Below, in pieces: positions 1-26,725 of a DNA stretch of 64,000 bases. Every line of letters begins with the position of its first letter. The stretch's first letter is position 1. The notes beneath the pieces were generated by a model. The model worked only from the letters and a program-made list of their open reading frames with translations, did not search any database and was not told where the DNA came from. This DNA is from Bacillota bacterium. GTDB lineage: Bacteria; Bacillota; Clostridia; Lachnospirales; Lachnospiraceae. The translations under genes were made by a program, and so were the position numbers. The stretch is taken from assembly GCA_902363515.1 (NCBI GenBank), contig CABJAN010000001.1:186001-250000 (forward strand), written 5' to 3'.

Positions 1-1753
1 TGTGAAGTTCTGCATTCTTCACACCCAGATTGGTTTTCACACGCTCAAAGGGGTTCGTGCCATCATAAACATATTTATCCCCGTAGAGAATATCATACTG
101 GAGACTTTCCAGGTCTACCTGATAGTTCTTAGTGTTTCTTCTTGCCTGATGAAAACGGAATACATTTCCCTCATGAATCCCTACCTGATCCATTACCTCT
201 GCTGCCATCTGATAAGCTGCCAGGTTTTTATCCTTTTTCTCCAGCCCCATATTATCCCAGATTACATATTCCGTCTGGAACAAATATTTATTCTCCACAT
301 CTGTTACGTTCAGCCCCATGGTAGGAAGATGGTCTCCGTACATAACCAGAACCACATCTTCATCCCATTTAGAAAGGGTATCTGTCAGTTCTTTTACAAA
401 CTGATCCATTTCGTATATCTGATTACAATAATATTCCCATTTATAGTTTTCCGCCTGGGAACTGCCTCCTGAAACCTTAATCTTTGGATTATCAATCATA
501 GGCTCTTCCGGATAATCTCCATGTCCCTGAACAGAAATGGTATAAATATAATCCGGATCATCGGTTTCCTCAAGCGCCTGCATAATATACTTGGTAAGAT
601 TTCTGTCCCGCATCCAGTCATTGGGATTGGTATCATCCTGCTCAGCCATATATTCCTCTGAAGTAAAGGTATCAAAGCCCAGGTTGGCAAATACATTTTT
701 TCTTCCATAGAAATTGGCTTCATTATTGTGAATGGCATGGGTGCGGTAGCCCAGGTCTTTTAATACATAAGCAGCGCTCTCGCAGGTAGTTTCTTTTAAA
801 ATTCCCTTATATGGATATTCTCCCGGTCCGAAATAGCGCATGCTCATACCAGTAATGGTCTCAAATTCTGTATTTGCAGTACCGGCTCCAACAGAAGGAA
901 CCTTAAAGTATCCGGAAGAATATTCTTCCATAAATTTCCGGAAAGTAGGAATGGGATCTTCTGAAACATCCAGAAACTCTACTAAAGTAGGATCAAAGAA
1001 GGATTCCAACTGTAAAAACAAAATGTTCGGACGTTTCTCTCCTGTTTCCGGAAGTGTCTCTGTACTTTTTTCGATTTCATCAATGGTTTTTTCATTATAT
1101 CCTCTTGGCATGCCGATTCCGGTATTAAACACTGTGGTTGCCAGGCAGTAAGGATATCCATAGTCTTCATAGGCAAAGGCAATATTTCCAAAGTAATTGG
1201 AAAGCACCCTTTTATCAAGAGCCAGCTTGGTAGTGCCGGCAAATGCCAGCACCCCTGCCAAAATCAGTGGAACATTCCACTTGTAGCTCATTTTCCCCTG
1301 ATACTTTGGCCCTTTTATAAAGAGCCAAATCAGCCCCAGAATCGCCAGAACGAATAAAATCACAACAACCACAAAAAAGAAGGGTGACAGATAACGGTCT
1401 GCAATCTCAAAGGCATCGGTAATCAGATGCAGGTCAGGTCCCGTAAAAGGCGTAACTCTGGTAGAAAGCAAAATTCCGTTAATAATTCCAAGTCCCATCC
1501 AGAAAATAAAGAGAATGGTTCTCCAGAATACTCTTCTTCTAAATAAGTAAACAATCAACGTTGTTGTAAAAATCAAAAATGCATTATACAAAAACACCAG
1601 AGGGCGTTCTGTCATAAAATCCATGGCACTAAAAAGAGAATGTCTGGATATGGCCTCAATGAAATAATATCCTACGCACACCGCCAGGAATTGAAGAGGC
1701 ACGGAAAACATGTTCAGATATTTCAGGCAGAATACCTTTCTAATTTCTTTCAT
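1..1753 (-). CDS. LtaS-like sulfatase-fold membrane protein (C-terminus beyond window)
   Basis: An uninterrupted reading frame runs leftward from an ATG at 1753, preceded by AGGAGA, to the window edge, so the C-terminal end is missing. The protein has about five hydrophobic segments in the first ~190 residues, then an extracellular alkaline-phosphatase-fold domain. Visible LtaS-family marks are the nucleophile region GTANTEFE with Thr292, the HNNEANFYGRKNVFANLGFD block and a YGDHLP motif. The family polymerises or transfers glycerol phosphate from phosphatidylglycerol on the outer membrane face, as in lipoteichoic acid synthesis; other members are phosphoethanolamine or phosphoglycerol transferases. 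It starts 21 bp after valS and is probably cotranscribed. The exact substrate is not known. Confidence 0.85.
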   Translation of the reverse strand, partial: MKEIRKVFCLKYLNMFSVPLQFLAVCVGYYFIEAISRHSLFSAMDFMTERPLVFLYNAFLIFTTTLIVYLFRRRVFWRTILFIFWMGLGIINGILLSTRVTPFTGPDLHLITDAFEIADRYLSPFFFVVVVILFVLAILGLIWLFIKGPKYQGKMSYKWNVPLILAGVLAFAGTTKLALDKRVLSNYFGNIAFAYEDYGYPYCLATTVFNTGIGMPRGYNEKTIDEIEKSTETLPETGEKRPNILFLQLESFFDPTLVEFLDVSEDPIPTFRKFMEEYSSGYFKVPSVGAGTANTEFETITGMSMRYFGPGEYPYKGILKETTCESAAYVLKDLGYRTHAIHNNEANFYGRKNVFANLGFDTFTSEEYMAEQDDTNPNDWMRDRNLTKYIMQALEETDDPDYIYTISVQGHGDYPEEPMIDNPKIKVSGGSSQAENYKWEYYCNQIYEMDQFVKELTDTLSKWDEDVVLVMYGDHLPTMGLNVTDVENKYLFQTEYVIWDNMGLEKKDKNLAAYQMAAEVMDQVGIHEGNVFRFHQARRNTKNYQVDLESLQYDILYGDKYVYDGTNPFERVKTNLGVKNAELH

Positions 1754-1774
1754 AAATGTTTATCTCCTAAGGGT

Positions 1775-4420
1775 TTACAGAAGCTGTGCCAGACGCTGTT
1801 TCACCTGTTCCATCATGTTGGTGTATTTCTCCAGTTTTTCTCTTTCCTCGGCAATTTTAGCCTCAGGCGCCTTGCTGATGAAACGTTCGTTGCTTAACAT
1901 ACCGTTTACGCGGGCCAGCTCTTTTGTGAGTTTCTCCTCTTCCTTTTTCAATCTCTCAATCTCTTTTTCAATATCAACCAGTTCTGCAAAAGGCATGTAG
2001 ATAACAGCCTTTCCGGTTACCGCTGATACAGCGTCCTCGTCAATCCCCTCTTTGTCCGCCTGTACCAGAACTTCACTGGCATATCCCAGTGAGGCAAAGA
2101 ATACTTTACCATTTTCAAATACATTTCTAACTGCCTCGTCTTCAGAAACTACAAATACCTTAGCTTTCTTGCTTGGAGGTACGTTCATTCCTGTGCGGAC
2201 ATTACGGATGCTTCTGACTGCTTCCTTAATGATTTCCACTGCTTCTTCGTCAGCCTTGAAATTCCACTCTGTCTTAAATTCCGGCCAGGAAGAAATCATA
2301 ATGGATTCTTCTTCCGGACACAGAGTACAGAAGATTTCTTCTGTAATAAATGGCATGTATGGATGAAGCATTTTCAGCGCATTTGCAAGAACGGTCTTCA
2401 AGGTCCAAAGTGCTGCTGCTTTTGTGGTATCCTCGTCATTGTAAAGTCTTGGTTTTACCATTTCAATATACCAGTCACAGAACTCTTCCCAGATGAAATC
2501 ATAAACCTTCTGAACTGCAATACCAAGCTCATATTTATCCAGGTTCTCTGTTACATCTTTTGCCAGAGTGTTTACCTTGGACAGAATCCACTTATCAGCG
2601 CTGGTAAGGGTTTCCAAATCAATCTCAGCCGGAACCTCTGCTTTTTCCAGGTTCATCATAATAAATCTGGAAGCATTCCATACCTTATTTGCAAAGTTTC
2701 TGCTGGCTTCCACACGTTCCATGTAGAAACGCATATCATTTCCGGGAGCATTTCCGGTCATCAGGGTAAGACGCAGAGCATCTGCTCCATACTGGTCAAT
2801 GATTTCCAGCGGGTCGATACCATTTCCAAGGGATTTACTCATTTTCCGTCCCTGGGAATCTCTCACCAGACCATGAATCAGTACGTGATGGAATGGTGTT
2901 TTTCCGGTCTGCTCCAGACCTGAGAATACCATACGGATAACCCAGAAGAAAATAATGTCATATCCGGTTACCAGAACGTCTGTCGGATAGAAATATTCCA
3001 TTTCTTCGGTTTTATCCGGCCATCCTAAGGTAGAGAACGGCCACAATGCGGAGGAGAACCAGGTGTCCAGGGTATCTTCATCCTGTGTCAGGTGAGTACA
3101 GCCACATTTTGGACATTTACCAGGCATTTCTCTTGCCACTACGGTTTCTCCGCACTCATCACAGTAATAAGCCGGAATTCTGTGTCCCCACCAAAGCTGA
3201 CGGGAAATACACCAGTCGCGGATATTTTCCAGCCAGTGCATGTAAATCTTATCAAAACGGTCCGGAACGAATTTCAGGTTTCCTTCCTGCAAGGTCTGAA
3301 TGGCAGCTTCTCCCATTTCCTTCATTCTTACAAACCACTGTGGTTTAATCATAGGCTCTACGGTTGTGCCGCAGCGGTCATGAGTTCCTACATTATGAGA
3401 ATGAGGAACCACTTTTACCAGAAGTCCCAGTTCTTTTAAATCTTCTACCATAGCTTTTCTGGCTTCATAGCGATCCATGCCCGTATACTTGCCACAGAGT
3501 TCATTCATGGTAGCATCATCATTCATAATATTGATTTCCGACAGGTTATGGCGTTTTCCTACTTCAAAGTCATTGGGGTCATGGGCAGGTGTAATCTTCA
3601 CGCAGCCTGTTCCAAATTCTTTATCTACATATTCATCTGCAACCACCGGAATTTCTCTGTCTGTAAGAGGCAGTTTTAGCATCTTTCCAATGAGATGTTT
3701 GTAACGCTCATCCTCTGGATTCACAGCCACAGCAGTATCTCCAAGAAGGGTTTCCGGACGTGTGGTAGCAATTTCTACAAACTGTCCTTCTTCTCCCACA
3801 ACCGGATAATTAATGTGCCAGAAAAATCCGTCCTGGTCCTCATGTTCTACTTCTGCATCAGAAATGGAAGTCTGGCAAACCGGACACCAGTTGATGATTC
3901 TGGAACCTTTGTAAATATAACCTTTTTCATATAATTTAATGAAAACTTCCTGTACTGCCTTGGAACAGCCTTCGTCCATTGTGAAACGTTCTCTGTCCCA
4001 GTCAGCGGATGCGCCCAGCTTTTTCAACTGATTGATGATTTTTCCGCCGTACTCTTCCTTCCATTCCCAGGCATGTTTCAGGAATTCTTCTCTTCCGATT
4101 TCGTTTTTATCAATGCCCTGTTCTTTCAGTTTCTCAATAACCTTAACCTCTGTGGCAATGGCTGCATGATCTGTTCCCGGCTGCCACAGGGCCTCATAAC
4201 CCTGCATTCTCTTAAAGCGGATAAGAATGTCCTGCATGGTCTCGTCCAGGGCATGTCCCATATGAAGCTGCCCGGTTACATTTGGCGGGGGCATTACAAT
4301 GGTAAATGGTTTCTTGTCTCTGTTTACTTCTGCATGGAAATATTTGTTATCCAGCCACTTCTGATAAATCCGATCCTCCAACCCTTTTGGATCGTAGGTT
4401 TTTGCAAGTTCTTTGCTCAT
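1775..4420 (-). CDS. valS: Valine--tRNA ligase
   Basis: Class I aminoacyl-tRNA synthetase that charges tRNA-Val in the cytoplasm, 881 residues, the usual bacterial length. Seen: HMGH signature at residues 53-56 ([16 protein letters not shown]), editing domain in the middle, KMSKS near residue 520, anticodon-binding domain and a C-terminal coiled coil rich in Glu and Lys that is typical of ValRS. Two adjacent ATG codons follow AGGAGG; the second (4420) gives MSKELAKT with a 5-nt spacing and is preferred over 4423 and over upstream in-frame codons, which lie inside the T-box terminator. A T-box leader upstream implies induction by uncharged tRNA-Val. The LtaS-like gene follows closely. Confidence 0.97.
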
Positions 4421-4423
4421 CAT

Positions 4424-4717
4424 ATCCTCCTGTCTCTTCTGAGGGATAAAAAAATACCCCTCATAACCATTCCTATAGTTACAAAGGGCGACTGTTATCG
4501 CGGTACCACCTTTATTTATCACTCAAAAGTTCTGTAACGGGAACTCCCGGGAAAACCTACCCAGCCAGAATCATGGCTTCTGCCACACTCTCCTTCAGTT
4601 CTCCGGTTCAAAAGCTACCTTCCATCCTTTTCCCTTAAACAACCTTCCAGCCAGTGAATTGTTCTCTCTGCAAGTTTCCGGGATGTACTCCTCTTTCTCA
4701 TCACCATTTTTTCTATG
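4424..4717 (-). promoter_or_regulatory. T-box riboswitch leader of valS
   Basis: On the minus strand the conserved T-box sequence GGTGGTACCGCG sits at 4499-4510, just ahead of an intrinsic terminator and valS. A stem I region with AGTA (S-turn side), an AGAGAG stretch and a GTAGC-TTTTGAACC stretch lies further upstream. The GTA at 4616-4618 is the likely valine specifier codon, an inference from its place before TTTTGAACC. Uncharged tRNA-Val would stabilise the antiterminator and allow valS transcription. Confidence 0.92.
4448..4488 (-). terminator. Conditional terminator of the valS T-box
   Basis: On the minus strand CCCTTTGTAAC pairs with GTTATGAGGGG (11 pairs counting G-U wobbles) around a 10-nt loop, followed by TATTTTTTT. 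The T-box motif lies just upstream, so this is the switchable terminator of the leader. Confidence 0.88.
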
Positions 4718-17678: not shown

Positions 17679-18641
17679 TTACCATTCCAACAGACTTCCA
17701 GCCCAGGAAAGTCCTGCCCCAAAGCCTGCCAGTATGAGTTTGTCTCCTCTTTTTAACAACCCCTTCCTGTTCCATTCATCCAGAAGAATGGGAATGCTGG
17801 CTGCGGAGGTATTTCCGTATTCCTGAAGATTCATGGGAAATCTGGAAATCTCTGCCCCAATCCTTTTGGCTGCTGCTTCAATGATTCTCTTATTTGCCTG
17901 ATGCAAGAAGAAATAATCAATGTCTTCCTGCTTCATCTGGGCTTGCTTTAAAAGCTCCTCCACAATCTCCGGCACACTCCGCACTGCAAACTTGAACACC
18001 TGCTGTCCGTCCATATGAAGAAAGGTTTCTTCCATGCGCTTTGGCTCTTCCCAGCCTTTCCTGTGTCGGCTTCGCCCTGTAAGCACGTTTCCTCCGGCTC
18101 CATTGGAATGGGCTGCGTGGAAGGAAACCCCTCCCGCTTCTGCTCTCAGTACCACAGCTCCTGCCCCGTCTCCAAACAAAATACAGGTTCCCCGGTCTGT
18201 CCAGTCAATGACCTGAGACATGCTGTCTGCCCCTATGACCAAAATAGTTTTATAAAGCCCTGCCTGAATATAAGCCTGGGCTGTCTGATAAGCCAAAAGA
18301 AAACCGCTGCAGGCTGCATTTAAGTCAAACCCTGGGCTGTTGGCTGCCCCTATTTCTTTTTGTACTTCACATGCCACACAGGGAAATATGGTGTCCGGTG
18401 TGGAGGTTGCCACTAAAATCAAATCCACATTCTCACCTGCAATCCCCGCCTGCAAAAGCGCCTCCCTGGCTGCCTGGGCTGCCATATAAGAGGTAGTTTC
18501 CTCTTCTATCAAATGGCGTCTGGCAATTCCTGTCCGTTCCTGAATCCAGGCATCATTGGTATCCACTACCTTCGCCAGTTCCTGATTTTCTACTGTTCTG
18601 GCCGGCACATAAGCGCCGGTTCCCAAAATTCTTCCAGTCAT
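17679..18641 (-). CDS. fabH: 3-oxoacyl-ACP synthase III
   Basis: 320 residues, initiating condensing enzyme (acyl-CoA plus malonyl-ACP). Catalytic Cys111 (DLNAACSGF), His247 (FLHQANKRI) and Asn277 (YGNTSAASIP) are all present, with the final GFGAGLSWAGSLLEW typical of FabH. First gene of the operon, directly behind a strong promoter and a candidate operator. The usual fabT (MarR) regulator gene is not next to it. Confidence 0.96.
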   Translation of the reverse strand: MTGRILGTGAYVPARTVENQELAKVVDTNDAWIQERTGIARRHLIEEETTSYMAAQAAREALLQAGIAGENVDLILVATSTPDTIFPCVACEVQKEIGAANSPGFDLNAACSGFLLAYQTAQAYIQAGLYKTILVIGADSMSQVIDWTDRGTCILFGDGAGAVVLRAEAGGVSFHAAHSNGAGGNVLTGRSRHRKGWEEPKRMEETFLHMDGQQVFKFAVRSVPEIVEELLKQAQMKQEDIDYFFLHQANKRIIEAAAKRIGAEISRFPMNLQEYGNTSAASIPILLDEWNRKGLLKRGDKLILAGFGAGLSWAGSLLEW

Positions 18642-18733: not shown

Positions 18734-18817
18734 GAGGTGGATAAGAGCAAAGAGCTTCTTATCTGGATAAAATTGTAAAAATAGTCTTATTTTTGTCCTT
18801 GAACCAATATCTACTTA

Positions 18818-18882
18818 TCGTTCCATGTTATTTATTTCAAACACCATACGATATGTACTCCCTGCTTTTTTTGCTATATAAT
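18818..18882 (+). promoter_or_regulatory. Activated promoter of the propeptide gene (operator copy A)
   Basis: TCGTTCCATGTT (18818-18829) and AACACCATACGA (18840-18851) are the halves of an imperfect inverted repeat with a 10-nt spacer. TATAAT follows at 18877-18882, exactly 25 nt after the repeat, and no good -35 hexamer is visible, as expected for activator dependence. The same arrangement precedes the radical SAM operon (20107-20171). The rest of 18734-18913 shows nothing else. Confidence 0.72.
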
Positions 18883-18913
18883 TCACTCATCACAAAAGAA
18901 AGGTTGAAACATT

Positions 18914-19111
18914 ATGAAATTTTTTAAATTATTTATTCTTGCAACTACATCTTACATTGCTCTGAACTTGGTAACACCTACTGCTTGTTTTGATACAAAA
19001 ACAGCTCATGATACCAAATCCTATATTGTCGCTGAGACTCAAAGTAATGATTCTTCTGAATATCCCTACATGCCAGCAGATGCAAATAGTCCTGGAGGTG
19101 AAATAGTTTAA
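18914..19111 (+). CDS. Small secreted propeptide, candidate signalling peptide
   Basis: 65 residues beginning with a Sec-type signal: MKFFK, then a hydrophobic stretch ending near TPTAC, followed by a polar stretch and a C-terminal tail EYPYMPADANSPGGEIV. I recognise no family. The size, export signal and place next to an HTH-TPR regulator resemble PapR- and Phr-type pheromone precursors, whose C-terminal ends are cleaved, re-imported and bind the regulator. It starts after AGAAAGG, has the same operator as the RiPP operon, and its end overlaps the end of the convergent regulator gene by 4 nt. The mature peptide boundaries are not known. Confidence 0.68.
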   Translation: MKFFKLFILATTSYIALNLVTPTACFDTKTAHDTKSYIVAETQSNDSSEYPYMPADANSPGGEIV

Positions 19112-20019
19112 TCCTCAAACTCCAGGTTCAAATATTTTTTTGCTTCTTCTTTTGTAACTTCCAGATTTACATCTCCGATTGCTTCACAGATATAATAAGC
19201 CTGTCGGTATGCCTTTTTGCTTTCCTCTATTCTGCCTAAAAAATAACAACACTCTCCATAGATTTCAATGCATCTTGGAAGATATTGATAATGTCCGTAT
19301 TTAATACAAACCTCTTTTGTTTCTAAAGCATATTCTATTCCTTCTTCATACCTTCCAGCCAAGTCAAGAACCCTTGCATAATTGTATAAAATCATAGGAA
19401 GCACTCCTGCGCTTGTAATAGCTTCCTTAATATGTTTCCGAATATATTTGAGCAGTTGATAGAAAATATCAGCCGCTTTTTTTTGATTTCCTGCACAAGA
19501 ATACGCATTGGCAATCTGATTAATAATTTTTATTTCATCTCTGGTATAAAGTTTTTTCTCTATCTCTTCTGTATTAAAATCAGGAACCGTCAAACGAATT
19601 GCCTGTGTCAGAATCTCGATTTCTTCCTGTTCTGTATAGCGTTTCTCCATTTGTTCAAGCAACAGCCTGGAACGTATAATAAACTGCTGAATCAATGGTT
19701 CCCCTTCTGCAAAAGCTTTCAGTTTTTCTATTTGTTTAAAACCTTCCTCTGCACGACCCGTCGCATTGCAAGCCACAATTTCTTTTTCTAAAGCCTCTAT
19801 TTCTAACTCATTTTTTGTCAAAAGAGCATAGTAACGGTCATCGGGTAAATCCAGTCTTTGTAAAATAGCATTGATCCTCACTCTGCTTGGCGTCTGCTTT
19901 CCATTCTCTATACGCGAAAGAGTAATCGGCTCACAAATCCCCTCACAAACCTGTTCCTGTGTTAACCCTAATTCTAATCGTCTCTGACGGATATAATCAC
20001 CCAAAAAAAAGTTTTGCAT
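19108..20019 (-). CDS. HTH-TPR regulator of RRNPP (Rgg/PlcR) type
   Basis: 303 residues. An N-terminal XRE helix-turn-helix (LGDYIRQRRLELGLTQEQVCEGICEPITLSRIENGKQTPS, about residues 5-45) is followed by an all-helical region with TPR-like repeats (NAYSCAGNQKKAADIFYQLL, LDLAGRYEEGIEYALETKEV, ECCYFLGRIEESKKAYRQAYYI). This is the architecture of peptide-binding RRNPP regulators. The ATG at 20019 sits after GAGGAG; a TTG six codons upstream overlaps that site and is unlikely. It is convergent with the propeptide gene and divergent from the radical SAM operon. Likely role: peptide-dependent activator of both operator-bearing promoters, by inference. Confidence 0.85.
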   Translation of the reverse strand: MQNFFLGDYIRQRRLELGLTQEQVCEGICEPITLSRIENGKQTPSRVRINAILQRLDLPDDRYYALLTKNELEIEALEKEIVACNATGRAEEGFKQIEKLKAFAEGEPLIQQFIIRSRLLLEQMEKRYTEQEEIEILTQAIRLTVPDFNTEEIEKKLYTRDEIKIINQIANAYSCAGNQKKAADIFYQLLKYIRKHIKEAITSAGVLPMILYNYARVLDLAGRYEEGIEYALETKEVCIKYGHYQYLPRCIEIYGECCYFLGRIEESKKAYRQAYYICEAIGDVNLEVTKEEAKKYLNLEFED

Positions 20020-20106
20020 TTGTAAATCTCTCCTCAATTACAGTACTTACCTGTTTTTCGGCTCTCAGTATAGCATGATATCCTTTCACTTTCCAGTGTT
20101 AACTTG

Positions 20107-20171
20107 TCGTTTCATGTTATTTTTTCACAACATGAAACGATATGGTTAAAAAAAGAATATGGTGTTAGGAT
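20107..20171 (+). promoter_or_regulatory. Activated promoter of the RiPP operon (operator copy B)
   Basis: TCGTTTCATGTT (20107-20118) and AACATGAAACGA (20129-20140) form a perfect 12-bp inverted repeat with a 10-nt spacer. TAGGAT (20166-20171) lies 25 nt downstream, the spacing seen at copy A; GATAAT at 20169 is an alternative -10. Over 43 aligned positions copies A and B agree at about 33. The regulator's own leftward promoter (TATACT near 20070) is just beyond. A small leader hairpin, ACAGTGA (20178-20184) with TCACTGT (20212-20218), follows. Confidence 0.8.
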
Positions 20172-20245
20172 AATAGCACAGTGATGAACATGTGAATTCA
20201 AAACTACATATTCACTGTAATCTAACAACGGAAGGAGAATTTAAA

Positions 20246-20323
20246 ATGGAAGTTATTGCAAAGAATAATTTTGGTATTAGGGTTCAGTGCAATGAAGATG
20301 GAAATGGTAACTGCCACTGCTAA
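20246..20323 (+). CDS. 25-residue Cys-containing RiPP precursor peptide
   Basis: A 25-codon frame starts at ATG 20246 behind GGAAGGAG (6-9 nt spacing) and ends with TAA at 20321. The N-terminal half (MEVIAKNNFGIR) would be the leader; the C-terminal end CNEDGNGNCHC carries Cys15, Cys23 and Cys25 with Gly and Asn, typical of a modified core. It has no export signal, lies immediately before a hairpin and a radical SAM/SPASM gene, and is the first gene after operator B. The size and context match precursors of radical SAM peptides such as the streptococcal Rgg-controlled RaS-RiPPs and the clostridial Clo7bot Cys-rich peptides. I did not recognise the exact core motif. Confidence 0.78.
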   Translation: MEVIAKNNFGIRVQCNEDGNGNCHC

Positions 20324-20336
20324 TCCCACTCAAATC

Positions 20337-20364
20337 CAGAGTCGTTACAATTGTAGCGACTCTG
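20337..20364 (+). terminator. Attenuating hairpin between precursor and radical SAM gene
   Basis: CAGAGTCGTTACAA pairs with TTGTAGCGACTCTG (one G-U pair), followed by a short T run (ATTTTCTG). It sits 13 nt after the precursor stop. Such partial terminators or RNA-stabilising hairpins let the peptide be made in excess over the enzyme. Confidence 0.75.
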
Positions 20365-20426
20365 ATTTTCTGATAAAACAAAAAATAATTGTAGAAAATC
20401 TATATCTAATTTTCAGAAAGGTGCCT

Positions 20427-21680
20427 ATGTATTACTTAGTTCCCTATATCTCTATTAAAAATGAAAACAATATTATTTATATTGAATCCTCAATTAATGA
20501 AAACTATATAAAAATAACTGATTCAGAATTACAGTCTGAATTTTATAAATTAAAAGAAAACGGATGTAAAACAATTGATACACCACTTTTAAACTGTCTC
20601 CATGAGCAAAAATTTCTATTAAATAAGTGTGAACTAGAGTCAAACCTGGCTTCTATAAGACATTTAATGGATGAACGTTTAATTCTTACACTCATGCCAA
20701 CAGAAAGCTGTAATTTTCGTTGTCCATATTGTTATGAATCGCACAATACCATAACCATGAATCAAGAAATTATAGAAAAGATTAAAAATTATATACAGCT
20801 ACATGTCAGTGAATTTAGCGTTATTTCTATAATATGGTTTGGAGGAGAGCCTACTCTTTGTGCAGACATGATTTTTAATTTTTCAGAATTTGTTAAAGCA
20901 CTTCAGAGCAGACAGAATTTTCAGTACAATGCTTCTATGACAACAAATGGGTATCTACTGACTAAAGAACTTTTTATAAAATTTTATGAACTTGGAATCA
21001 CCTCATATCAAATAACCATAGATGGATGGAATCACGACCAAACAAGACCTCTTGCTTCTGGAAAAGGTACTCTTGATGTTATCTTAAAAAATTTGCAGGA
21101 TATTTCCAGTTTGGATCAAGCGCAATATTCCTTTCATATTACGATACGCCACAATATTTTAAAAGACGACACTGATTTCACATGGTATGATTATTTATAT
21201 CAATATTTCGGGAAAGATGGACGTTTTTCTGTTCTTATCCGTCCTATTGGTGACTGGGGAGGCGAAACTGTTAAAAAGCTTGACTTACTTTCCTTACCTG
21301 AACGTGATCATCTTGTTCTACAACATATTAATTATTTAAAAGAAATCGGTATGGACTGTAGCAATGGCGGAAAAGGCATTTTTTCTAAGATATGCTATGC
21401 TGGTTTTCCACATAGTATGGTATTTCGTGCAAATGGAAAAATTGAAAAATGTACAGTTGCTTTAAACCATCCAAAAAATCTTATTGGATTTGTGGATACA
21501 GACAAGGGTGTTTGCATAGATGAAAATGCCAATCAATTATGGTGGCAACCAAATTTACTTTCTAAATGTTATTCTTGCCCTAAAGTTCTAAGCTGCTTTA
21601 ATATGCAATGCCCGAAAAACCAATTAATTGATGGTTATCCCCCCTCTATCTGCACAGACGAATATGATAAAATTTATTAA
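20427..21680 (+). CDS. Radical SAM/SPASM peptide maturase
   Basis: 417 residues from ATG 20427, which follows AGAAAGG by 5 nt; earlier in-frame codons overlap the precursor gene and its hairpin. The N-terminal ~90 residues lack cysteine clusters and probably hold the peptide-recognition part. CNFRCPYC at residues 95-102 (CxxxCxxC) binds the radical SAM [4Fe-4S] cluster; IIWFGGEPTL and MTTNGYLL are further core motifs. A SPASM domain with auxiliary clusters is indicated by ICYAGFPHSMVFRANGKIEKC and the C-terminal KCYSCPKVLSCFNMQCPKNQ...C. Such enzymes install thioether, C-C or related cross-links in small peptides. GC content is clearly lower than in the fab operon, which suggests horizontal transfer. 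Confidence 0.92.
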   Translation: MYYLVPYISIKNENNIIYIESSINENYIKITDSELQSEFYKLKENGCKTIDTPLLNCLHEQKFLLNKCELESNLASIRHLMDERLILTLMPTESCNFRCPYCYESHNTITMNQEIIEKIKNYIQLHVSEFSVISIIWFGGEPTLCADMIFNFSEFVKALQSRQNFQYNASMTTNGYLLTKELFIKFYELGITSYQITIDGWNHDQTRPLASGKGTLDVILKNLQDISSLDQAQYSFHITIRHNILKDDTDFTWYDYLYQYFGKDGRFSVLIRPIGDWGGETVKKLDLLSLPERDHLVLQHINYLKEIGMDCSNGGKGIFSKICYAGFPHSMVFRANGKIEKCTVALNHPKNLIGFVDTDKGVCIDENANQLWWQPNLLSKCYSCPKVLSCFNMQCPKNQLIDGYPPSICTDEYDKIY

Positions 21681-21703
21681 AATTCACTCCGGAGGTGTTT
21701 CAT

Positions 21704-23311
21704 ATGCTTTACTATCTAAAAAAAACATGGCTGGATTCTTCGCTCACAATACTATGTCAGATTATCACTAGTGGTGTCGCCGTATTTGCAGCACTTGCCT
21801 CCATGAAAGCTCTTGACGGTCTTTTAGAACAAGATGCCACTTTGTTTTTTTGGGGGCTGACTGCACATTTAGGGGCCTGGGCAATTAGCTTCACTGCTTC
21901 CCATTTGGAGACAGTTTTTCATTACCGGGCACTTCAAAAAATCAACGGTTTAGAACGCCGGGATATGACAGCAGCCCTAATCGGAAAAAGTCATCAAGAA
22001 TACCATTCCAAAGAAAGCGGAACCTATCTGTCTGGATTTACAAATGATATTTCTCAAATGGAACAATTAGGCTGGGAACCTTTTTTTAATCTGTTTGGTA
22101 CAATATCCCAGATTATTTCCAGTTTAATCGCACTAGCTGCCTTACATTGGTCTCTTATGGCTCTTTCTCTGATTTTAGGGATTATTATGATTCTTCTTCC
22201 GAAAATTTTTGATAAGAAATTAAATCATGCCGGTGAAAACTGTTCCAAATTACAAGCTCAGGCAGTAAGTTCCTTTAAAGATTTACTTATGGGATATGAC
22301 GTATTGCAATCTTTTGGTAAAATTAAAAATCTTTACAAGGGAACCGAATATGCAAGTGGGCAAATGGAAGTTCCCCGTTATAAACTCAAAATACTAAGAA
22401 GTCTGGCAGGAAATGGCATGGGATTTATAAGTGTTGTTTTCCAGGTCTTAGTGCGTTTACTTGCAGGTATTTTAATTCTCATGGGAAAACTAAACCTTTC
22501 TGTTATGGTAAGTGTATCAACCATTTGTGCCCAAGTTTATAATGGGCTCAAAGAACTGGTAAACCTCCAGCTTTCCTTTTCTGCAGGGAAACCTTATTTT
22601 AAACATTTAACTGTTCATGATAATGGAAATTCAGAAAAAGATGCGACAAAAATGCTTCCTTTCTCTCATTCTATCCAGGTGAAACATTTATCTTTTCAGT
22701 ATGATAGGAAGCCCGTTTTAGAAGACGTTTCTTTTACTTTTGAAAAAGGTAAAAAATATGCACTAACAGGGCCTTCAGGTTGTGGGAAATCAACTCTACT
22801 GAAACTCATCCTTGGATGGTTGCCTGATTATCGGGGAAACATTTACTTCGACCAGCAGGACATCCGTACCATTGTTCCTGAGGCTCTGGAAGAGCAGATA
22901 AGCTACATTGAACAAAACGTTTTTCTCTTTAATACTACAATTCGCGAAAACATTACATTAGGAGAATCTTTTACAGAGGAACAGATAAACAATGCAATTG
23001 AAAAAAGTGCTCTTGTAAATGACTTATCTTCAATGCCTGATGGACTTGATACAGTAGTCGGAGAAGAAGGACGTAATCTTTCTGGCGGGCAAAAACAACG
23101 TGTTGCTATTGCCCGGGCACTCATTCACAATCGTTCTATTTTGCTGGTTGACGAAGGAACTAGTGCTCTGGATACCCAAAATGCAGACCTTGTAGAGCAA
23201 AGTCTGCTGGCGAATCAGGACTTAACCCTGATTCTAATTAGCCATCACTTGTCACCCAAACGCAGACAGCAATTTGACAAAGTTTACACATTAGAGGCTC
23301 ACACTATATAA
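21704..23311 (+). CDS. ABC exporter half-transporter 1
   Basis: 535 residues: six-helix membrane domain (residues ~15-300) and an ATPase domain with Walker A GPSGCGKSTLLK, signature LSGGQKQR, Walker B ILLVDEGTSALD and H-loop ISHH. The start at 21704 follows GGAGG by 8 nt. No C39 peptidase domain is fused, so it would export a peptide that is cut elsewhere or not cut. It is 23 bp after the radical SAM gene, in the same operon. It probably pairs with the second half-transporter. Confidence 0.88.
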   Translation: MLYYLKKTWLDSSLTILCQIITSGVAVFAALASMKALDGLLEQDATLFFWGLTAHLGAWAISFTASHLETVFHYRALQKINGLERRDMTAALIGKSHQEYHSKESGTYLSGFTNDISQMEQLGWEPFFNLFGTISQIISSLIALAALHWSLMALSLILGIIMILLPKIFDKKLNHAGENCSKLQAQAVSSFKDLLMGYDVLQSFGKIKNLYKGTEYASGQMEVPRYKLKILRSLAGNGMGFISVVFQVLVRLLAGILILMGKLNLSVMVSVSTICAQVYNGLKELVNLQLSFSAGKPYFKHLTVHDNGNSEKDATKMLPFSHSIQVKHLSFQYDRKPVLEDVSFTFEKGKKYALTGPSGCGKSTLLKLILGWLPDYRGNIYFDQQDIRTIVPEALEEQISYIEQNVFLFNTTIRENITLGESFTEEQINNAIEKSALVNDLSSMPDGLDTVVGEEGRNLSGGQKQRVAIARALIHNRSILLVDEGTSALDTQNADLVEQSLLANQDLTLILISHHLSPKRRQQFDKVYTLEAHTI

Positions 23312-23340
23312 TGTTATTTTGCTTTTTTACATGAAATAAG

Positions 23341-23395
23341 TGGACAAAAGTGCTGGATAAATTTCAAACAAAAAAATTTTTTCAACACTTTGTCC
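23341..23395 (+). other. Imperfect inverted repeat between the two ABC genes
   Basis: In the 143-bp gap between the ABC genes, GGACAAAAGTGCTG with following AAATTT pairs with AAATTTTTTCAACACTTTGTCC. There is no T run after it, so an RNA processing or stabilising element fits better than a terminator. No small peptide gene is visible in the gap. Confidence 0.4.
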
Positions 23396-23454
23396 TGCTC
23401 ATCCGTCTTATAAATGTGAGAAAAATTTTTATAAGAAATGAGAGGGGAAATTCA

Positions 23455-25092
23455 ATGAAAAAAATAATCTTGCAACACAAATTCTGGCTGGCAGCCGTTC
23501 TTTTTGCCACTGCCGGACTTACCACTGTAGAATTATTGAAGGCATTTTTAATGCAGTATATTCTGGATTCGGCAACCATAGGAACCATGGAGCGGTTACA
23601 AACAGCCTGCATTCTTGCCATTGGGTTTTTGATTCTGATGGTACTTCTTGGTTTGCTTTACGATACAGTAACTGGCTATTTTGTCAGGATTTGTATGGAA
23701 ACAGTGAAAGCACAGTGGATGCACAAGATTGAGAGAAAGCGTCTGTGTGAATATGATGTTCAGAAAACCTCTGGTTATATGTCTCATTTCACTGTGGACA
23801 CAGCGTCTCTGGAGGAGGATTATTTGCAGAACTTTTTTCTGATTCTCCAGTATCTTATGACCGGTGCAGCTTCTCTTGTTGTGATATGGAAGATTCATTA
23901 TTATTTTGTAATTTTTGTATTACTTACTTCCTGGCTCCCGCTTTTAATTAACCGCCTGTGGATTGGAAAAATTACAGACAGCAAACTGGAAGCCTCAAAA
24001 AGCAGTGGGAATTTTACCAGAATTTTAAAAGAACTTCTGGCTGGCTTTGAGGTAAGCCGCATGTATGGTTTGTCTGAACATATGGAGAACACCTTTCAAA
24101 AGGAAAATCAGGAGTTAGAGAAAAAACGTTTCTGGTCCCGCTTTACAAAAGGTGCCTGCGAAAATACCGGCGGTACAGCCAGTTTGCTGCTTTGGATGGG
24201 AACCCTTCTTCTGGGAACCTATCTTACTTTAAGAAACCTCATTACCGTGGGAATGGTTTTGCAGGTAAATCAATTGCTGAACAATCTGGTGAATCCTTTG
24301 TACCGGATTTCCTTTTGCCTTACCAAAATGAAAGCGGCAAACAAAATTTACGAACATGTGGAAAAAGAGTTAGAGGAAGGAAATCTGCCACAGGAAACCA
24401 AAGCCAAAAATCCAGAGCAGCTTTCAGGTTTTTCCGCCAACATAGAAGTAAAGTCTCTGGGAATTTCCCTTCGTGGATGTGAGATTTTAAAGGATGTGAA
24501 TCTGTGTTTTGAAAAAGGGAAAAAATATCTTCTGACAGGGGAAAGCGGCTGTGGAAAATCTACTTTGTTAAAAATGCTGCTGGACTACCACAAGGAATAT
24601 ACAGGAAAAATTCTGGTAGACGGTCATGACCTATCAAAGGTGCAGATGGAAAGCTGGTATCAGTCCGTAGCGGTTGTAAGCCAGAGTGATTTCCTTTTTC
24701 ATGACACCCTTCGCAATAACCTCTGTCTTTTTCAAACAATTTCAGAAGAAAAAATCCAGGAAATTCTGAAACTCTGCTGTCTGGAAAAATTTGTGGCAGC
24801 CCAGAAAGAAGGGCTGGATTTTATGATTGAGGAGAATGGTAAAAATGTCTCTGGAGGAGAGCGGCAGAGAATTTGCCTGGCACGTGCCCTGTTAAAAGAA
24901 GCGCCTGTTCTGATTCTGGACGAAGCCACTTCTGCCCTGGATTCTGCCACTGCTTTTCAGATTGAAAATAATCTCCTCAACATGCAGGGAATCACCATGA
25001 TTTCTATTTCCCATAAGCTGTTTCCTGAACTTTTTGAGAAATATGATGGAAGGATTCAGTTTGAGCAACAGACTGCATGGAAAACTGTATAA
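23455..25092 (+). CDS. ABC exporter half-transporter 2
   Basis: 545 residues from ATG 23455 after GAGGGG. Six hydrophobic segments precede an ATPase domain with Walker A GESGCGKSTLLK, signature VSGGERQR, Walker B VLILDEATSALD and H-loop ISHK. The membrane domain differs enough from the first exporter to suggest a heterodimer rather than a recent duplication. Last gene of the peptide operon; a strong hairpin follows. Likely substrate: the modified peptide or the propeptide signal, by inference. Confidence 0.87.
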   Translation: MKKIILQHKFWLAAVLFATAGLTTVELLKAFLMQYILDSATIGTMERLQTACILAIGFLILMVLLGLLYDTVTGYFVRICMETVKAQWMHKIERKRLCEYDVQKTSGYMSHFTVDTASLEEDYLQNFFLILQYLMTGAASLVVIWKIHYYFVIFVLLTSWLPLLINRLWIGKITDSKLEASKSSGNFTRILKELLAGFEVSRMYGLSEHMENTFQKENQELEKKRFWSRFTKGACENTGGTASLLLWMGTLLLGTYLTLRNLITVGMVLQVNQLLNNLVNPLYRISFCLTKMKAANKIYEHVEKELEEGNLPQETKAKNPEQLSGFSANIEVKSLGISLRGCEILKDVNLCFEKGKKYLLTGESGCGKSTLLKMLLDYHKEYTGKILVDGHDLSKVQMESWYQSVAVVSQSDFLFHDTLRNNLCLFQTISEEKIQEILKLCCLEKFVAAQKEGLDFMIEENGKNVSGGERQRICLARALLKEAPVLILDEATSALDSATAFQIENNLLNMQGITMISISHKLFPELFEKYDGRIQFEQQTAWKTV

Positions 25093-25102
25093 GGGAAGAT
25101 AT

Positions 25103-25150
25103 AGAATCCTCTTTTTCTGATAATTTGAAAGAAAAGAGGATTCTTATATT
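25103..25150 (+). terminator. Terminator of the peptide operon
   Basis: AGAATCCTCTTTT (25103-25115) pairs perfectly with AAAAGAGGATTCT (25132-25144); the T-rich tail is TATATT, so it is strong in stem and moderate in tail. Confidence 0.75.
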
Positions 25151-25187: not shown

Positions 25188-26725
25188 TTATTCCTCTGCC
25201 TGTTTCACTTTGCAGTGTTTTCTATAACATGCAATCCCGTATTTTAAAATTTTATCCACTCCGTTCTCCCGGAGTTCTTCATCATATTTCTTTTCCTCTA
25301 TCTGTTGTAGTGCCCGTTCACAAGTCCGATCAAGATTTCCGTCATTGGCATACTTAACTTCAATAAGAATAACCGTTTCACTGTTTTCAGTTTCAACCAT
25401 AATATCGCTGTATCCTTCGCCGCTTTCCTGATTGGACGATACGTACCATTCTTCCTTCACGCCCAGGATTCCAAGCAGTATCCCATGATAAAAGTTCTCC
25501 TTGCTTGCTTTTCTCACAAACGTATCCCGGATACTGATGGTCTTTTTCAGGTAGCTTTCAAAAATTTCTCCTACCTTCGTTTCCTCACCGTTTTTCAGGG
25601 CATCACAGAATCGGCTTAATGTATCTCCATCCTTTGCAACACTCTCTTTAAAGTATTCCATAATCTGTGTTTCAAAAATATCCCGGATTTCCAGATTTGG
25701 AATCGCAAGTTTATACCGTTTTGCATCCACCCTTCCACGCTGCGTTAAATATCCCGTCATAAACAACAGGCTCCAGACGTTCTCTAAGGACTGATACATT
25801 TCCGGATAGACAAGCTCCTGATGAATTTCTTTTATGATTTCCTCTCCGGCAAGCAGAGTTTCAATCTCACGCCTGGTTTTTAAATTACCGGACATCTGAA
25901 TGAATTTCCTGACAGCACCATTACTGCTGGTATTAATCCAATAGTTTTCCGGAAAAGAATCCCCATGGTCTTTTAATTTATCACAGTAATTCAATACATC
26001 CCAGGGGCAGTACAATTCTACAGAGCCAAACTGATACCCGTCATACCAGTTCTTTACTTCTTCATAATGATCCTCGATTTCATAATACTTCAGCATTTCT
26101 CTTACTTCAGTATCTGTAAAACCGAAATATTCATCATACCGTTCATCTGTAATGGACAATACTTTCAGGTTATTAAGTCCCGTAAAGATACTTTCTTTTG
26201 AAATACGCATGCATCCTGTCATTACTGCAAATTTCAGGCTGTTATTGGTTTTTAGTGCCTGTTCCAATAAACTACGGATTAAAAAGATCATCTGATTATA
26301 ATACCCGTTTTCAAATGCTTTTGCTAATGGGACATCATACTCATCAATCAAAAGAACTACTTTTGTTCCATAATGTTTCTCCAATAATTCCGATAAAGTT
26401 TTCAATCCGCTGCAAAATACAGCTTTACTCATTCCGCTATCTAAAAGTTTCTTATATTCTAACACGCTTCACACAGTTTTGTATCTTTTGAAATTTTCAA
26501 TCCCTCAAAGATACTCTGGTCTCTCTCTATGGAAAAAAAGTGTTCCAGCATACTCATATTTAAGGTTTTCCCAAAGCGTCTTGGTCTGGTAAAAAGATTC
26601 ACCATTCCACCGTTACGGATCAGTTCTGAAATCAGCCCCGTCTTATCCACATAATAGTAGTTATCGTTAATAATCTGCTCAAAATTTTCCAATCCTACCG
26701 GAAGGCGTTTTTTTTCTTTAACCAT
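25188..26725 (-). pseudogene. AAA-ATPase-like / PD-(D/E)XK (DUF1703) gene, broken
   Basis: Two frames carry one protein. The first (26725 to 26459) has the N-terminal ATPase part: LPVGLENFEQIINDNYYYVDKTGLI and FTRPRRFGKTLNMSML. It ends at LCEAC and stop; the second frame (from about 26465) resumes with LKTLSELLEKHYGTKVVLLIDEYDVPLAKAFENGYY and runs to a C-terminal nuclease-like domain with GYSDIMVE and VILIEVKYA. In intact members several dozen residues lie between these parts, so both a deletion and a frameshift occurred. These genes are common, often multi-copy and of unknown function in gut Firmicutes. It is next to the peptide island. Confidence 0.8.

Follow-up and report, generated by a model that had tools for sequence, protein, structure and literature searches.

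Short radical SAM peptide cassettes in Clostridia that are probably under PlcR/TprA-type quorum-sensing control

We analysed a window of 64,000 nucleotides from a Lachnospiraceae bacterium (assembly GCA_902363515.1, contig CABJAN010000001.1, positions 186,001 to 250,000). A 6.3-kb AT-rich stretch between a FabH-like gene and a split AAA-ATPase/PDDEXK gene holds a cassette with genes in the order propeptide (+), convergent regulator (−), precursor (+), maturase (+), and two ATP-binding cassette (ABC) half-transporters (+). Our best reading is that this cassette probably represents a Clostridia family of ribosomally synthesized and post-translationally modified peptides (RiPPs) made by radical S-adenosylmethionine (SAM) enzymes, or RaS-RiPPs, with swappable cargo under the control of PlcR/TprA-type peptide quorum sensing. 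An earlier note, made from the DNA letters, had named a 25-mer with three Cys residues, a radical SAM/SPASM maturase, two ABC exporters, a regulator, and a small propeptide, and we find all of these parts (table 1).

When the species genomes were searched with an alignment of 35 maturase sequences, 167 related loci came up, of which we kept the best 80. We refer to L001–L015 (maturases at 38–52% identity) as the family and to the remaining, lower-ranked 65 of the best 80 of 167 as the outgroup; together with the window and a Faecalibacterium locus found later (L135), 17 family loci were counted, with apparent duplicates (L005 and L124, L014 and L123, L002 and L133) counted once. A precursor was defined as a short, Cys-containing open reading frame (ORF) that is preceded by a Shine-Dalgarno sequence, begins with the leader M[EKRQ][VI][IVL], and lies no more than 700 nt upstream of the maturase gene. 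The earlier note had staked its proposal on homologous maturases having a similar short peptide upstream, and they do: 14 of the 17 family loci encode one, against one of the 65 outgroup loci. The motif missed L002, L013, and L014. At L013 a precursor is clear by eye, with the leader MVIKK that lies outside the motif, and at L014 the maturase N-terminus is missing and no precursor was found. At L002 (8945–9001) the precursor and its operator are deleted between regulator and maturase, and the propeptide-side operator is retained.

The resulting set of 15 distinct precursors (14 by motif and that of L013 by eye), window included, has a leader of the type MEVIA-KK and hypervariable cores, mean pairwise identity being 0.31 for residues 2–8 and 0.10 for the rest. 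The spacing from precursor stop to maturase is 70–110 nt, and most relatives have inverted repeats at the same position between the two genes as the window. By the 14/17 count and L013, the short precursor and the radical SAM/SPASM maturase are kept as a pair, which is the general mark of a RaS-RiPP system. That the 25-mer is instead a chance ORF in a decayed locus is suggested by its shortness, by the absence of a match to any Pfam or NCBIfam family model, and by two relatives that look degenerate (L002 without precursor, L014 without maturase N-terminus). We consider this very improbable in view of the 14/17 and 1/65 counts, of a maturase that is intact with its cluster-binding Cys residues, and of leaders in which codons vary while residues are kept (by eye). 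The leader pattern starts 12 of the 59 Cys-bearing, Shine-Dalgarno-preceded ORFs of 20–45 aa in 267,100 bases from 14 sources, more than chance would give; each of the 12 sources whose own precursor matches the pattern contributes one.

The cores share a spacing of Asn and Cys. Asn stands three residues before Cys (Cys-3) for 16 of 34 Cys residues, in 12 of the 15 precursors, against a shuffle mean of 4.6. When the residues after position 10 were shuffled, 16 was reached in none of 20,000 trials, and in a family-wise test covering all residues and 12 offsets 12 precursors were reached in none of 2,000 shuffles (3 of 2,000 without L008). The best natural experiment for this constraint is provided by L006 and L008, the maturases of which are 82% identical and the cores of which (SILDNYACNLNGRC and FELKNDHCSFSNDHC) have little in common apart from two NxxC motifs with their Asn and Cys. 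The core end that the earlier note did not recognise is not wholly unrecognisable, because NGNC and NCHC both fit the NxxC pattern of streptococcal NxxcA.

Several points weigh against this constraint and the reading built on it. NxxC is absent from 3 of the 15 precursors (L004, L005, and L135); the first 14 precursors served both to spot the rule and to test it, and the sole precursor found afterwards (L135) does not follow it. The precursors are, moreover, not phylogenetically independent. With only the 11 precursors most like that of the window, the −3 test gives 22 of 20,000 and the family-wise test 68 of 2,000, so that the less closely related members contribute some of the signal. The only other offset with an excess of Asn is Cys-5, where the enrichment is mild (P = 0.011 by Cys and 0.0017 by precursor).

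In the outgroup, short peptides ending in [D/N]-x-x-C lie upstream of the maturases of L017, L021, L024, L029, L030, L040, L052, L069, and L043. All nine Cys-ending actinobacterial peptides (8 loci), picked among the ORFs listed for 22 outgroup loci, carry Asp (8) or Asn (1) at Cys-3; because these peptides resemble each other, we count them as about one lineage. The gammaproteobacterial peptide (L043, ...DSGC) also fits.

In the passages cited here, NxxcA contains one beta-thioether that links Cys23 to Cbeta of Asn20 (PMC8326336), and freyrasin uses Asp as the beta-thioether acceptor (PMC8326336; PMC13361665). Because Asn at Cys-3 is the streptococcal NxxC pattern, we predict Asn-Cys beta-thioethers for the family, a bond type that this analogy makes fairly likely. 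The same cassette could alternatively form alpha-thioethers (sactionines) or gamma-thioethers, with the Asn being a recognition or turn residue and not the acceptor. The best fold match of the maturase among the matches listed is 5why (17% identity), which, like 5wgg, we take to be the SCIFF maturase CteB. SCIFF is described with a Cgamma-thioether in part of PMC8326336, streptosactin and suisactin appear as sactipeptides from RaS-RiPP operons in part of PMC13361665, and three precursors of the family lack NxxC, all of which would suit other bonds. Yet Asn in the family and Asp or Asn in the actinobacterial outgroup recur exactly at −3 while the rest of the core changes, and the cited passages of PMC8326336 describe both residues as beta-thioether acceptors, in NxxcA and freyrasin. 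Other bonds are therefore rather unlikely in our judgement, with an appreciable chance left to them.

The CX3CX2C motif and six Cys residues of the SPASM region are invariant among the 35 aligned maturases. The window maturase lies below every NCBIfam cut-off, which is a further point against our reading. Its best model is TIGR04463 (residues 7–396), membership in which is ruled out by a score of 145.8 bits against a cut-off of 525; three outgroup maturases scanned score 199–217 bits, likewise below that cut-off. Against the PapB ranthipeptide maturase model the window maturase reaches 92.5 of 340 bits. SCIFF/ScfB membership is ruled out as well, with 57.8 of 425 bits for the maturase and with three Cys in the 25 residues of the precursor, which is unlike the six-Cys precursor of SCIFF. 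In all 15 relatives the gene after the maturase is related to the first ABC gene. Both exporter genes that the earlier note had placed in the operon exist, but a two-exporter operon was rejected as a conserved trait: 13 of 15 relatives have no such second gene next to the cassette, and in the other two (L012 and L015) the available sequence ends within 0.7 kb of the first.

The regulator is closest by sequence to PlcR and not to Rgg, and among the Foldseek matches listed Rgg2 ranks below five PlcR chains, so that by sequence and fold membership in the Rgg/SHP (short hydrophobic peptide) systems is ruled out. Its start was corrected because homologues start at MQNFFLG. The propeptide is PapR/PhrA-like in position and build and matches no Pfam or NCBIfam model; its gene is convergent with that of the regulator in the window and 13 of 15 relatives, and the stops overlap by 4 nt in 10 of the 11 pairs measured. 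Both elements of an RRNPP pair are present, namely a PlcR-type receptor with helix-turn-helix (HTH) and tetratricopeptide repeat (TPR) domains and an adjacent small propeptide, the secretion signal of which is predicted by eye. The logic of Rgg/SHP RaS-RiPPs with a different regulator and pheromone, which the earlier note had seen here, is borne out by a PlcR/TprA-like regulator, a propeptide of 65 aa, and one operator type before both propeptide and precursor.

Regulators of about 580–640 aa with two HTH stretches are encoded at L006 (12199–14121), L008 (3797–5698), L012 (6741–8546), and L014 (6881–8626), a build that would fit a single-chain dimer arising by duplication and fusion of a PlcR-like regulator. 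Tandem regulator copies occur at L009 (6745–8589), L011 (6509–8598), and L003 (3305–5252; one full and two partial).

A predicted 38-bp inverted-repeat operator precedes both the propeptide and the precursor in the window and in L001, L004, L005, L007, L009, L015, and, weakly, L003 (7 of 15 relatives). The operator matrix was trained on nine sites picked by eye, with four simulated sequences per locus; copy 1 of the window was scored with a matrix from eight precursor-side sites of other loci. In the loci examined the best −10-like hexamer lies 21–26 nt after the operator site, and TATAAT follows copy 1 by 21 nt; the spacing at L132 and L136 is 21 nt, and a doubtful propeptide-side site of L003 was left out of this comparison. 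At L003 (188–1836) a third copy (score 30.1) lies before a gene for a lipoprotein-like S41 peptidase, a candidate processing protease of the regulon.

We propose that the propeptide would be secreted and trimmed, that it would bind the PlcR/TprA-like regulator once re-imported, and that the peptide-bound regulator would raise expression from the two similar operators; the one before the propeptide gene would provide positive feedback and the other would drive the precursor operon. The maturase would grip the short leader (MEVIA-KK type) via its N-terminal RiPP recognition element (RRE)-like domain and link Cys thiols to the Asn at position −3, with beta-thioethers as the most likely product; the window peptide would be bonded at Asn20-Cys23 and/or Asn22-Cys25. 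The adjacent ABC exporter would release the product, which is probably a narrow-spectrum antimicrobial or a strain-specific signal because the other core residues vary freely. Of this scheme, the conserved gene layout, the paired operators, the precursor family, the Asn/Cys constraint, and the folds are computational results, and the identity of the pheromone, the sign of regulation, the type of bond, and the activity of the product are inferred.

Some results argue against such a circuit. The propeptide C-termini have no clear common motif, no propeptide was found at L011, and in the matrix scan L006, L008, L010, and L012–L014 are without this operator and L002 and L011 carry a single one. 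A further argument comes from the nearest regulatory analogue whose peptide is encoded on the opposite strand. In the cited parts of PMC5436883 and PMC7595303, TprA/PhrA and TprA2/PhrA2 of pneumococcus are PlcR homologues with adjacent lanthipeptide genes, and TprA is a repressor relieved by the peptide. By this precedent the window regulator would repress both operators until relieved by its peptide, with no PlcR-like peptide-dependent activation. The tprA and phrA genes are oppositely oriented and TprA inhibits phrA and downstream lantibiotic genes (same parts of PMC5436883 and PMC7595303), and the window pair is likewise convergent; activation is thus not certain. Against repression, the operator ends at about the point where a −35 hexamer would start and the −35 positions bear little resemblance to TTGACA (by eye), an arrangement that fits an activator, and PlcR carries the molecule name transcriptional activator. 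We therefore favour activation as roughly twice as probable as repression, which keeps a substantial though lesser share.

The modified peptide could itself be the ligand of the regulator, with some other role for the propeptide. Hypervariability, which a ligand would be expected to show, is seen in the cores and in the propeptide C-termini, and some RaS-RiPPs act as growth-regulatory signals according to part of a review (PMC13361665). However, at L002, where the precursor is gone, the propeptide is still paired convergently with the regulator and keeps its operator, and regulator and operator also precede another cargo, which makes a RaS-RiPP pheromone improbable and leaves the propeptide as the preferred source of the signal.

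This other cargo is found in Faecalibacterium. At L134, L136, and L137 (about 400–3400) a family regulator (partial sequence) and operator precede a different, ryptide-like cassette in the order peptide (MYTVTFSNEELEEMKANDAVVIVSCDDDNGHRLY, in two of the three loci), maturase, major facilitator superfamily (MFS) protein, and then a truncated resident maturase. The maturase at L134 scores 349.4 of 600 bits with NF040899. A relative of the ryptide class (RRR, NF040899) thus sits behind the same operator type, with a maturase, peptide, and MFS exporter that differ from the resident cargo. The sequences indicate that cargo has been exchanged behind a single quorum-sensing module; the three inserts resemble one another and could stem from one event, and the genomes of L136 and L137 each also carry a second family locus. 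In the protein database the window regulator has near-identical copies (98–100%), whereas the best maturase match listed is 57%, which suggests that cargo may also differ between strains of the host species.

The family is rare. Three family-level draws contained it in 2 of 397, 2 of 297, and 1 of 250 genomes, each draw including the genome on which it was centred, and the genus of L001 has it in 5 of 31 genomes. A phage-type integrase adjoins L002 and a serine recombinase adjoins L004. Transfer, which the earlier note had read from AT-rich composition, is supported by this patchy distribution together with the integrase and recombinase beside two relatives, not by composition alone. There were no regulator matches at 1e-40 in 20 genomes of the genus of the two genomes with the closest AddA (69 and 72% identity, among the 397 drawn), a search that had no positive control. 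An origin from a phage or plasmid was dropped: megablast against phages gave no DNA match, tblastn gave a single unverified fragment of 6.3 kb with a phage label, matching 64% of the maturase at 46.6%, and three plasmid records at about 35%, and the operator pattern had no exact match in viral contigs. A precursor-like ORF was not found in the phage-labelled fragment or in viral locus L081.

A more speculative extension, which we put forward tentatively and consider less likely than not, is that the PlcR/TprA-type pair and its operator would be a mobile socket for RaS-RiPP cargos. The resident cargo would then be a natural thioether library in which leader, Asn, and Cys are held and the loops are lineage-specific, and the overlapping Asn20-Cys23 and Asn22-Cys25 pairs of the window might form an interlocked bicycle similar to the D/E rings of nisin, but made by a radical enzyme and not by a lanthipeptide synthase.

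The system resembles the streptococcal Rgg/SHP RaS-RiPPs NxxcA and NxxcB in placing a short precursor, a radical SAM/SPASM maturase, and an exporter beside a peptide-sensing RRNPP regulator, and its core shares Asn-x-x-Cys with NxxcA (bond Cys23-Asn20). It differs from them in its PlcR/TprA-like regulator, in a convergent 65-aa propeptide in place of a short SHP, in its occurrence in Clostridia, and in its MEVIAxKK leader and hypervariable cores; the comparison with NxxcB is by description, not by sequence. With TprA/PhrA it shares a PlcR-type regulator, an opposite-strand propeptide, and RiPP genes as the target, whereas its cargo is radical-SAM and not lanthionine, the stops overlap by 4 nt, the layout has two operators, and no common C-terminal heptapeptide is recognised.

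A survey of RRNPP-adjacent gene clusters gives, in the main text as cited, 196 clusters from eleven families, among which Lachnospiraceae, Ruminococcaceae, and Oscillospiraceae do not appear (PMC10075063), and a study of leaderless peptides describes, in the part cited, RiPP clusters divergent from their receptors (PMC10518010). A description of this precursor/maturase family was not found in our searches of the open-access PMC literature. Each ingredient has precedent. What appears to be new is their combination, together with the leader family, the convergent switch with its two operators, and the exchangeable cargo. If our reading is correct, density-controlled RaS-RiPPs would extend from streptococci to gut Clostridia (Faecalibacterium, Lachnospiraceae, and Oscillospiraceae) with another receptor class, a synthetic peptide could induce silent clusters, and hypervariable loops around a constant Asn/Cys frame would reveal the core positions at which the enzyme accepts changes. 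It also makes a concrete chemical prediction, an Asn-Cys thioether at i-3, for a family represented in the window by a member below every NCBIfam cut-off.

Table 1. Features of the cassette and its borders (positions in the window)
Feature	Position	Strand	Basis and remarks
FabH-like gene, edge of fab cluster	17679-18641	−	Named from sequence
Operator copy 1, imperfect inverted repeat TCGTTCCATGTTA...AACACCATACGATATG	18818-18855	+	Upstream of propeptide gene; matrix score 34.0, best of 4 shuffles 9.2
Secreted propeptide, 65 aa, presumed pro-pheromone, C-terminus ...ADANSPGGEIV	18914-19111	+	Signal-peptide-like N-terminus (by eye)
HTH-TPR (RRNPP) regulator, PlcR/TprA-like, 303 aa	19108-20019	−	Sequence and fold comparison
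Operator copy 2, inverted repeat TCGTTTCATGTTATTTTTTCACAACATGAAACGATATG	20107-20144	+	Upstream of precursor; leave-one-out score 40.4, shuffle maximum 9.2
Putative −10 element GATAAT	20169-20174	+	24 nt after operator copy 2
RiPP precursor, 25 aa, MEVIAKNNFGIRVQCNEDGNGNCHC, leader MEVIAKNN.., core with 3 Cys	20246-20323	+	Shine-Dalgarno sequence upstream; 1 of 15 distinct precursors
NxxC motif 1, Asn20-Gly-Asn-Cys23	20303-20314	+	Asn at Cys-3
NxxC motif 2, Asn22-Cys-His-Cys25	20309-20320	+	Asn at Cys-3; overlaps motif 1
Inverted repeat (stem-loop), possible attenuator	20337-20364	+	Between precursor and maturase; 12-nt arms, 1 mismatch, 4-nt loop
Radical SAM/SPASM maturase, 417 aa, N-terminal RRE-like domain (about residues 1-82)	20427-21680	+	Pfam Radical_SAM, 72 bits
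ABC exporter half-transporter 1, membrane and ATPase domains	21704-23311	+	Pfam; no peptidase domain among Pfam matches
ABC half-transporter 2, uncertain member	23455-25092	+	Pfam; starts 143 nt after first ABC gene
AAA-ATPase/PD-(D/E)XK family gene, split into two ORFs	25188-26725	−	Directly downstream of cassette

The GC content is 0.30–0.42 in the cassette, 0.44–0.50 in the left flank, and 0.43–0.49 on the right side (about 26.5–33 kb); the split ATPase gene (25–27 kb) is likewise AT-rich (0.37–0.38). Elsewhere in the window, a T-box leader lies at 4481–4710 on the minus strand (Rfam RF00230, 104.5 bits).

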